The position numbers were made by a program, and so were the translations under genes. Of a stretch of 64,000 nt of DNA, positions 28,219-37,264 are shown piece by piece. Origin of the DNA: Chrysomallon squamiferum. Taxonomy: Eukaryota > Mollusca > Gastropoda > Neomphalida > Peltospiridae. Below the pieces are notes generated by a model. It did not search any database, was not told the origin of the DNA, and saw nothing but the letters and a program-made list of their open reading frames with translations. The stretch covers positions 28,201,446 through 28,265,445 of the forward strand of contig CM022665.1 of the NCBI GenBank assembly GCA_012295275.1, written 5' to 3'. The first letter of the stretch is position 1. Every line of letters begins with the position of its first letter.

Positions 28219-31200
28219 TTAAAGTTCGGTCTCTGCAATTGTGTCTGTCAGTCTGTACACAATTTCTGCTGACGTAGGTGGCGTGTCGCTAAGCCAACAA
28301 GACTGGGCCGTCTCCAGCAACTAAAATAAAGACAAGAAAGTACATATGCTGCAACAGGCTAATAATGGTATTGTAGGTTTAGAAATTTAAAAAAAGAAGA
28401 AAAAAAAAAAGAAAGAAAGGAAAGTTATAATAATAATCATAATAAAAAATAAGAGAGAGAGAGAGAAGAGAGAGAGAGAGAGAGAGAGAGAGAGAGAGAG
28501 AGAGAGAGAGAGAGAGAGAGAATAAGTTTTCTGCATTTTATTAGTCCATTTATCTACATCGCTGCAGGTTCACTTTAACAACAATAATTATAAATTCATA
28601 TAATTAAATATCTGGAAAATAATAGCAGCAGCAGCAGTAACAACAACAACAACAACAACAAACAAACAAACAAACAAAACGAAATGAAAGAAGTGAAGTA
28701 ATTAATACATTTTGTATAGGCATACCTAAAAACAAGTACTATTATTAAATAATATTTATTATTTCTCCATTATAATGTAATTTGGTTTGTAAAGTAAATA
28801 AATGTTAGATTAGTTATTTTCTAAAAATAGCAAATCTTTAACCGTAAAGAATGTTTTACCTGATTTCCTATCGAACCAAATTTCCCAGCATGCTGCAGCT
28901 TTGATTTCATCACCTCGAAGTTGTTAGTCCTTGCCGGCAACAACTCGTCAAATTTTAAAATTGATATTTTAGATGTCAGAAGTCTGCAATATTTGACATG
29001 ATCTGTACTCACTCCTTTCAGAAGAGGAACATTTACAGTATTTGAAGTATTTGAAGTCACTTTTCCTTCAGATAAAAATTTCGGTTGTTGCATAGATCTC
29101 TCATCCAGCCCGAACACTGGAATATCGTTAATGGAATGATTTTGCTGTGTGAACATTTTGTCAATAGCCATTTCGGCATCTACAAGAGGATATTTTGAAT
29201 ATGTTGTGTCTGTCTGGTGAAATCCGTATTCACTGTGCTGTTCATGTTCGTGTTCCTGTTTAGACACCGACTGATTTCTTTTCGAGTCTACAATTACCCT
29301 TGATTCATCTGCCGATGACTCGCCCGTTATTTCGTCAGGTAACTCACGTATTATTTCATCTAGAACATCTGCATTCGATCTTTTTCTTTTCGGCTGCTTA
29401 CGGTTGGAATGGCAGTCGCTAATTGATTCATATTCATTGAACCTGTTGATTGCACCCTTTTGTGAATAACGAACGTCTGTGTTACAGGAAGTGTCCGTGT
29501 CACTGTTAGCAAAAGGTACCTGTGCCTCAAGACCTTGGAATAGAATTTCGTCATCCGAATCCCATTCTTCCTCTTCATTATCATCCTCCTCAATGATCTC
29601 TGCTGTTGACTCCATCACCGAGTCTCGGTCGGTTTCGGAATGTTCCGAAGCGGAGACAACCGAAACACGAAGAGGCACACCACGGGTTACTAATTCTTTA
29701 TAACGCTTCATGTTTCGTTTCCACTGAATTCTCTCTTTAGAACGAGTTTTTCGCACAGTTTTTATATTCATATTCTTCCCATTCGTAGGCCTTCCTGAAG
29801 GGTACTGTTGGTCGGGGCCAATTATATCTCCTTCGTTCTGCATAAAGTTATCTCTCTGTGGAGAGAAATCATATGATGAGAACGACTCGTTACCAGATTG
29901 TGGATAGATTGGCTTCGTATGCATTCCTTCAGTGGGAGTAACAGAATACTGACAACTACATGTCTCGTCTGTAGGACAGGAACACGTCTGGTCATCGATC
30001 TCCAGCTCTTGCAGTGACCCTTCCTCACTTTTCACAGAGCCACTGTCAAAACCGCTGTCAATTTTCACATCCTTTGTAGGACTTACTTTAATTTTGTGCA
30101 CAGGTATGTCATATTCGTGGTCATGTTCCGTGACATATCCATCCTGATTGCAGTGTTCTGATGAATAAGCTTGCGAAGACAACGACGTTAATTCTCCACT
30201 AGTAAGAGACGTGGTTTGCTGTTTACGTGGATTGTTGCGGAAGTAGCTACTGAAGCTGTCATTACTGCTAAAACTGGAAAATTTCCCACCATTATTCTCA
30301 TTAGGCTGAGCATGCGTTTCTGGACGATGAACTTGATCCTTAGATTCACAGGGCGTTTCGCCCCGATTGAGAACATCGCCTTCGTTTTCATTTTTCACGT
30401 TACTTTGTCGTTTTTGAGATGCGTATTTCTGTTCTACCGCAGCTGCTGACTTTCCCCTGTCTTTATCTATTGCAGTAGATGGACGCTGCAGCTGTCGAGT
30501 AAGAATATTTCTGGCCTTGTTTTTCTTAGCATTCGCATTTTGTGCTGTCTGAGGTCTGCCAGCAGTTTGCGCCGTTGCAGGACGAGAGGAAATGCTTCTG
30601 GAAGATGATGGCACCGATGTATATGGTCTCGATTGCGTATTGACTTGCTCATTAACAGATATACCTGATACATAACGCTGCTTTTGTGAATTGTTCGTTT
30701 GCACAGATGCATTACTTTTTGTTTGTGAAGACACGTTGTTTTTCATTTGCAAAGATTGGTTACTTTTCATTTGTACAGCCATTTTATCTGACCTCAACTG
30801 AGTTTTATTCGCATCTAATATCTGTCCTCTGGAAACTGATCTACGTTCTTTTTCTGTCAATAGATCTCTAAGCATTGGTTTCATCCGTTCGTCGTAGCAT
30901 TCGATAAGGTATTGTTTTCTTTGTGCTTCTCTAGCCAACCACAATTCTTTCAGACTAGGACCAGACGTCTCGGTGTCATCTGCCATTCCAGGTAAAATTT
31001 CATTCACTGCCTCTGGAGATTTTGCTAACGAAGAGCAACCTCTTCTGTCATTATTTACAGCCTGACCATCCATTTTCGACATACTGTACACTGAACGATG
31101 ATCTGAAGGACATTTATGCATTGGTTTTCCTTCACATACCTGTCCATACGAAGCATATGTACCTATATCAAGTGAAACATATTCAGGATCATCTTTTAAA

Positions 31201-37200: not shown

Positions 37201-37264
37201 TAATGACAGAATCCACAACTCTTGTTGAATCTCCAAGAAACATATCCGTTATGTTAGACGACAT
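28219..37264 (-). CDS. 7-transmembrane receptor fused to a pseudokinase with a giant C-lobe insert
   Basis: Five exons with matching phases: 36323-37264, 33508-33749, 32851-33043, 28860-32045 and 28219-28320, encoding 1554 aa. Residues 1-314 hold a short N-terminus (N-glycosylation site NIT) and seven hydrophobic helices (about 16-42, 50-75, 83-111, 128-150, 176-203, 231-253, 259-288). Cys83 and Cys163 are placed for the usual extracellular disulfide. DRY and NPxxY are not evident. Residues 315-519 are kinase-like: VAIK-type Lys338, alpha-C Glu352, HQN at 444-446 in place of HRD, DFE at 469-471 in place of DFG, and an alpha-F DIRAFALVTLEIIGL. About 520-1480 is low-complexity, probably disordered. 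Residues 1491-1554 supply the missing C-lobe end (SCWLSDTPPTSAEIVYRL). An in-frame TAA lies upstream of the ATG. 7TM-kinase fusions are known in oomycetes, amoebae and choanoflagellates; I cannot assign a named animal family. Joining the exons is inferred from phase. Confidence 0.75.
28452..28521. repeat. (GA)n microsatellite
   Basis: About 35 GA units with one interruption, in the last intron of the receptor-pseudokinase gene. Confidence 0.95.
28860..32045 (-). other. 3.2-kb exon carrying the kinase C-lobe insert
   Basis: 1062 codons are open without interruption. The exon opens with the DFE activation-segment start and alpha-F, then about 960 residues of Ser/Asn/Gln/Glu-rich sequence. It closes with an alpha-G-like segment (FDELLPARTNNFEVMKSKL). 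Features inside are a Pro-rich patch (DIPQKIPESPPI), a charged helix near residue 840 (LKELWLAREAQRKQYLIECY), a CSCPTDETCSC cluster, a basic stretch near 1230-1260 and an acidic run near 1280 (EEDDNEEEEWDSDDE). KQPKRKR near 1345 resembles a nuclear localisation signal. Confidence 0.85.
32253..32356. repeat. (TAGTG)n pentanucleotide array
   Basis: About 21 near-perfect copies of a 5-bp unit, preceded by about 130 bp of decayed copies. It lies in intron 3 of the receptor-pseudokinase gene. Confidence 0.9.
32555..32747. repeat. Compound (TG)n...(GA)n microsatellite
   Basis: (TG) at 32555-32588, a TA-rich spacer, then (GA) at 32639-32747 (109 nt). It lies in intron 3 of the receptor-pseudokinase gene. 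Its composition is the reverse complement of the compound repeat at 35242-35367 in intron 1. Confidence 0.95.
32851..33749 (-). other. Pseudokinase N-lobe and catalytic-loop exons
   Basis: Exon 33508-33749 encodes the degenerate glycine-loop region, a VAIK-like Lys (GLLKVYS) and the alpha-C helix with Glu (WAQEIVIL). Exon 32851-33043 encodes the hinge (LICMEWTSSGTLRDFL), alpha-E (IIHDIAEGLACLHEQ) and the catalytic loop with HQN instead of HRD. Together they span 435 nt, a whole number of codons bounded by phase 0 on both sides. The pattern is closest to tyrosine-kinase-like and receptor-guanylyl-cyclase kinase-homology domains. Confidence 0.8.
35242..35367. repeat. Compound (CT)n...(CA)n microsatellite
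   Basis: (CT) at 35242-35305 (64 nt), a 16-nt spacer, then (CA) at 35322-35367 (46 nt). It lies in intron 1 of the receptor-pseudokinase gene, in inverted orientation to the tract at 32555-32747. Confidence 0.95.
36323..37264 (-). other. 7TM exon of the receptor-pseudokinase
   Basis: A single 942-nt exon carries all seven membrane helices and ends in phase 0 at GAG|GTGAGT. Its last residues (KKLELLKIE) are a short basic linker leading directly to the kinase-like domain of the next exon. The extracellular N-terminus is only about 15 residues and has no signal peptide. It matches no rhodopsin-family signature that I can see. Confidence 0.85.

Follow-up and report, generated by a model that had tools for sequence, protein, structure and literature searches.

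A stretch of 64,000 nucleotides from the gastropod Chrysomallon squamiferum (GenBank assembly GCA_012295275.1, contig CM022665.1, positions 28,201,446 to 28,265,445; below, the window) contains a minus-strand gene in which a seven-transmembrane (7TM) domain, with a predicted class A G protein-coupled receptor (GPCR) fold, is joined in one protein to a kinase-like domain that lacks catalytic residues. We consider it moderately likely that the product is a single-copy orphan receptor, in which a short conserved linker connects the 7TM domain to an intracellular pseudokinase with a long insert and a PDZ-binding end, and which would signal allosterically through this pseudokinase.

The gene consists of five minus-strand exons (Table 1), which together give a single open frame of 1554 residues plus stop. 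GT donors and AG acceptors are present at all four introns (2573, 464, 805 and 539 bp). Exon 1 holds an ATG and seven hydrophobic stretches and ends in phase 0 (...KIE followed by GTGAGT). The original prediction for this DNA had described a 7TM exon ending in phase 0, followed on the same strand by exons in matching phase, and its coordinates, splice sites and stop-free join of 1554 residues all hold. When the whole genome (404.6 Mb, 22 contigs) was searched, exon 1 had one match (protein search, E ≤ 10) and exon 4 also had one (E ≤ 0.01); these single matches rule out a repeat or a multi-copy family. Directly after the 7TM exon (window 36240-36311, minus strand), the frame reads VSN and then a stop; the starts of two AATAAA signals follow within 70 bases. 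A 7TM-only isoform, generated by intronic polyadenylation just 3' of exon 1, is possible.

To collect relatives, three protein searches were made at E ≤ 10, each scoring approximately 8000 candidates inside a length range. They returned 33 proteins, 28 proteins with a profile (one of them new), and one among shorter proteins, which was a piece of the 7TM exon. The closest relative found was LOC121371340 of Gigantopelta aegis, a peltospirid snail: residues 1-545 were matched full length (E=0, 83% identity), the identity over the whole alignment was 71.5%, and the match is far beyond chance. Thirty-two relatives were aligned with the model (33 rows), and the partial proteins P0032, P0033 and P0035 were left out. 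The 28 entries with species names represent 27 species (Mytilus edulis occurs twice), all of them molluscs, which by genus we take to be 11 gastropods and 17 bivalves; no relative from outside the molluscs was among the named matches, a result that holds for the candidates scored and does not imply absence from cephalopods, annelids or brachiopods. Most of these entries have the same 7TM-kinase order within a single protein, as the original prediction proposed to check, and the span of gastropods and bivalves goes beyond what it contained. Of the 33 rows, model included, 28 are more than 90% complete in the 7TM, kinase and C-terminal parts. The incomplete rows are P0026 (85% of the C-terminal part), P0028 (82% of the 7TM domain and no C-terminal part), P0029 and P0030 (66% and 40% of the 7TM domain) and P0031 (0%), which is called partial by its source.

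The exon joins could be compared in 31, 32, 32 and 31 of the 32 relatives for joins 1-4, where the median identity over 30 residues was 70, 70, 67 and 53%, and rows of differing length numbered 3, 0, 3 and 2 of 33, respectively. Four further relatives, tagged 'lgn', have uninterrupted open reading frames of 1738-1900 residues on contigs of 5999-6846 bases and most likely represent assembled transcripts (cDNA). Three of them reach the N-terminus, and the fourth (P0029) starts near the end of the third transmembrane helix (TM3). By eye, P0033 looks like the frame of exon 4 read through into other sequence, with both transitions at the positions seen here; this suggests that the exon-4 borders are conserved. 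Two neighboring genes, one for a 7TM protein and one for a kinase-like protein, might have been wrongly joined by the exon model, since intron 1 is 2573 bp long and exon 1 is closely followed by an in-frame stop and AATAAA signals. However, relatives in both gastropods and bivalves are single proteins, sequence is conserved across the first join in the 31 relatives comparable there, and the intron-free contigs carry both halves. These relatives and contigs contradict the wrong join, which we regard as extremely improbable, and support the earlier claim of a single animal transcript for a 7TM receptor with a protein-kinase-like domain. In the family tree (no outgroup, midpoint root), gastropods were grouped with support 1.0, as were bivalves without Solemya, which was placed with the bivalves at a support of only 0.35. 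Within the heterobranchs, Bradybaena fell outside the others and not beside the pond snails. The tree broadly fits vertical descent of one gene.

The kinase-like region scored 31.9 bits with PF07714, above the cut-off of 23.1, and was thus identified as a kinase domain; PF07714 and PF00069 each matched all 22 members scanned (E ≤ 0.01). With NCBIfam, the only hits were to kinase families of bacteria and archaea, at scores far under the cut-offs. In a whole-genome PF00069 search (132 of 847 candidates scored), the present kinase was not among the 141 matches, which agrees with its divergence and with its distribution over several exons. The best Protein Data Bank (PDB) matches of the kinase profile were LRRK2 (1.1e-08), TYK2 (2.3e-08) and LIMK1 (8e-08), from which the domain appears to be of the tyrosine kinase-like (TKL) type. 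The likeness to these proteins, which have other domains as well, lies in the kinase sequence, and no ROC-COR, LIM or FERM domain was detected in Pfam scans of the mollusc family. The source of one member, P0034 of Plakobranchus ocellatus, calls it leucine-rich repeat serine/threonine-protein kinase 2, which misleads as to its architecture.

A kinase N-lobe, catalytic loop, activation segment and C-lobe end had been predicted in that order. The order stands, but the catalytic residues are lost and the C-lobe end is set off by an insert of about 1000 residues. In all 33 rows the HRD Asp and the catalytic-loop Asn (+5) are missing and DFG is changed to DFE, with Asp kept and Gly replaced by Glu, so that no row has the set of residues of an active kinase. 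In addition, only 27-29 residues separate the DFG Asp from the alpha-F Asp, and all 32 rows with a residue at the RP arginine position have Pro there. Judged by these residues, the domain is a pseudokinase, and it may still hold nucleotide. An active but atypical kinase using other residues, that is, a true receptor kinase which phosphorylates targets or itself after ligand binding, would agree with retention of the beta-3 Lys (32 of 33 rows, one gap), the alpha-C Glu and the DFG Asp (both 33 of 33), with which ATP binding may remain; HER3, which has an HRN loop, keeps weak activity. However, the loss of the HRD Asp, the +5 Asn and the DFG Gly from every row, together with the short activation segment and the missing RP arginine, argues against such an enzyme, and we find it quite improbable.

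The 7TM domain was characterized mainly by structure prediction. The AlphaFold2 model of exon 1 has seven long helices (predicted local distance difference test score, pLDDT, 77.4) and forms the seven-helix bundle of class A GPCRs. Loops with five-residue flanks contain 17 Lys/Arg on the inner side versus 4 on the outer side, which indicates an N-out/C-in orientation. Both Cys residues of the GPCR disulfide, at the top of TM3 and in the second extracellular loop, are present, and Cys83 is presumably the equivalent of C3.25 in GPCR numbering. Sequence comparisons gave less: no Pfam 7tm family matched any of the eight members scanned (E ≤ 1), the Pfam matches on the 7TM domain (TM140 at 0.0055 and others) were all below cut-offs, a single-sequence search against PDB reached the A2A receptor at E 0.35, and the 7TM profile found no PDB sequence at E ≤ 10. 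A second fold comparison (VIA), with the model of a 984-residue Solemya protein, spans 7TM residues 13-240 only and is uninformative on the kinase.

The insert contains 18% Ser+Thr in the model and has a few conserved islands, e.g., YKELVTRGVPLR, SLTSGELTSLSS and DSGFDSGS. Conservation in the insert peaks (mean 0.84) in the first of these, at window 29702-29667 on the minus strand (residues 1241-1252), together with SLTSGELTSLSS. We read DSGFDS as a beta-TrCP degron; the pattern DSG-hydrophobic-x(1-4)-S is present in 32 of the 33 rows. The insert is probably phosphorylated. The C-terminal ETEL is assumed to be a class I PDZ ligand, and T-x-L/V ends 31 of the 33 rows; of the other two, P0028 is truncated and one ends in TETL.

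Mean identity to the model was 69% for the N-lobe, 64% for the linker, 62% for the first C-lobe part, 52% for the C-terminus, 36% for the 7TM domain and 24% for the insert. The linker and kinase are thus more conserved than the 7TM domain and the insert, which fits a constant intracellular scaffold or switch with a diverging sensor side. The main rival explanation is a conventional GPCR with G-protein signaling, in which the pseudokinase tail only tunes desensitisation, trafficking or anchoring. In its favor are the class A fold and the two conserved extracellular Cys residues; 26 of 33 rows also have a residue like Asp2.50 (the others are 3 Asn and 4 gaps), 30 of 33 have two membrane-proximal Cys, and the intracellular part is rich in Ser/Thr and has a PDZ end. 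Against it, DRY, CWxP and NPxxY are all missing from the aligned stretches (located by eye relative to the Cys anchor), and the 7TM domain is less conserved than the linker and kinase. We regard this explanation as rather unlikely. HxN-loop pseudokinases regulate receptor guanylyl cyclases and JAKs. In the reading that we favor, signaling through the pseudokinase, a ligand would move the 7TM helices, the conserved linker would pass this change to the pseudokinase, and the latter would serve as an allosteric scaffold or switch, by analogy to receptor guanylyl cyclases, JAK JH2 and KSR. Signaling would then involve neither phosphorylation nor ordinary G-protein coupling, the PDZ end might anchor the receptor, and the DSGFxS motif could set receptor turnover by phosphorylation and beta-TrCP.

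Several observations weigh against this interpretation. PF00069 gave 28.4 bits, below its own cut-off of 31.7, and the kinase fold was modeled poorly through the 984-residue Solemya protein (pLDDT 44.9). The three GPCR motifs are missing as described, but G-protein coupling occurs in some GPCRs that lack these motifs. The putative degron and PDZ ligand are both short motifs. The AATAAA signals close behind exon 1 would permit a 7TM-only form, and no AATAAA was found within 220 bases downstream of the final stop.

Table 1. Positions of exons, domains and key residues of the 7TM-pseudokinase gene in the window
Feature	Position	Strand	Evidence or conservation
Exon 1: start codon, 7TM domain, linker (residues 1-314)	36323..37264	-	open frame, ATG, GTGAGT donor; AlphaFold2 helices; one genome match
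Seven predicted transmembrane helices (residues 12-287), class A GPCR-like fold	36404..37231	-	structure model and fold comparison; loop charges
Cys83, disulfide half	37016..37018	-	C in 30/33 rows, 3 gaps
Cys163, second extracellular loop, other disulfide half	36776..36778	-	C in 32/33 rows, 1 gap
Exon 2: kinase N-lobe	33508..33749	-	frame and splice sites; Lys338 and Glu351 kept
Beta-3 Lys338	33680-33678	-	K in 32/33 rows, 1 gap
Alpha-C Glu351	33641-33639	-	E in 33/33 rows
Exon 3: hinge, alpha-E, degenerate catalytic loop	32851..33043	-	frame and splice sites; PF07714 above cut-off
Asn446 at the place of the catalytic HRD aspartate	32890..32892	-	N 31, K 1, R 1 of 33 rows; D never
Exon 4: DFE motif, short activation segment, alpha-F, long insert	28860..32045	-	DFE in 33/33 rows
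Ser-rich insert, ~1000 residues, inside kinase C-lobe	28881..31877	-	957-1401 residues in relatives, truncated P0028 excepted
DSGFDS, beta-TrCP-type phosphodegron motif	30042..30059	-	exact in 27/33 rows
Exon 5: kinase C-lobe end (alpha-H/I) and stop	28219..28320	-	AG acceptor, in-frame join; CW...PP conserved
C-terminal ETEL, class I PDZ-ligand type	28222..28233	-	ETEL 29, ETEV 2 of 33 rows

Several known systems resemble this architecture. The kinase homology domain of receptor guanylyl cyclases and JAK JH2 are intracellular pseudokinases with an HGN-type loop that act as allosteric parts of receptor systems; these proteins have a single span or none, and then a cyclase or an active kinase. 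In contrast, the mollusc protein has seven predicted helices, and neither a cyclase (none in Pfam scans) nor an active kinase was seen after the pseudokinase. Smoothened binds PKA-C in trans and is not known to have a fused kinase fold of its own. It resembles the mollusc protein in being a noncanonical GPCR with an action on a protein kinase (PMC13186710; here and below, statements on cited papers refer to the portions available). Venus kinase receptors (PMC3703292, PMC4026697) are also invertebrate receptors that pair a GPCR-related module with an intracellular kinase, but differ by a class C Venus flytrap ligand-binding module, a single span and an insulin-receptor-type kinase. The GPCR-tyrosine kinase (GPCR-TK) fusions of choanoflagellates and sponges (PMC12716839) likewise join 7TM and kinase domains in holozoans, including an animal group, but unlike the mollusc family have predicted tyrosine kinase domains. 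An N-terminal 7TM domain and a C-terminal TKL-type kinase-like domain in one chain are also found in acanthoecid choanoflagellates (GPCR-TKL/K) and in oomycetes and amoebozoans (GPCR-TKL; PMC12716839, PMC5784254, PMC6033456). The mollusc protein shares this architecture, but it is bilaterian, found in one copy in this genome, and has degenerate catalytic residues, a C-lobe insert of ~1000 residues and a PDZ end. No choanoflagellate or oomycete receptor was among the named matches (E ≤ 10), which is weak evidence on 7TM homology.

Elsewhere in the window, an exon on the plus strand (15243-15758) has a BACK domain (PF07707) and by eye is like a BTB-BACK protein such as BTBD9. Exons on the minus strand (49341-51853) have leucine-rich repeats (PF13516) and EF-hand matches below cut-offs, and are perhaps one LRRC74-like gene. 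Rfam had no match in the window at gathering scores.

The 7TM-kinase fusions of protists, as originally noted, are documented in published surveys, and sponges are to be added to the groups that have them. A 2018 survey, in its available portion, considered such GPCR-bigrams rare or even nonexistent in metazoans. The available text of a 2025 survey (PMC12716839) reports GPCR-kinase fusions in choanoflagellates, with tyrosine-kinase ones in sponges and none in other metazoan lineages, and none functionally characterized; its Discussion counts GPCR TKL/Ks among families newly found in metazoans, and its results name sponge GPCR-TKs only. No bilaterian GPCR-kinase fusion was found among the papers listed in literature searches, judged by title and start of abstract, and the supplements of PMC12716839 may hold a bilaterian member. 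The gene numbers of six relatives were not mentioned in the literature searched, most subscription papers being outside it. In the accessible part of the oyster kinome paper (PMC4883820), 'GPCR' does not occur in the main text, four TKL kinases form unique families and 28 kinases are ambiguous; the mollusc kinase may have been counted there unnamed. Thus, the bigram plan is a known one, but the animal group is new, the kinase is degenerate and the tail is its own. A more far-reaching reading, less likely than not, is a receptor class of molluscs' own, a GPCR-pseudokinase that would signal through its pseudokinase instead of G proteins, present in one copy since before the gastropod/bivalve split and with an origin separate from those of the fusions in protists and sponges. 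With this conserved family, GPCR-kinase fusions reach into Bilateria, and the family shows that a fusion of this sort can be maintained although its kinase is dead. Its hosts include widely kept molluscs (Aplysia, Biomphalaria, oysters, mussels), tractable animals for asking what a receptor-linked pseudokinase does.
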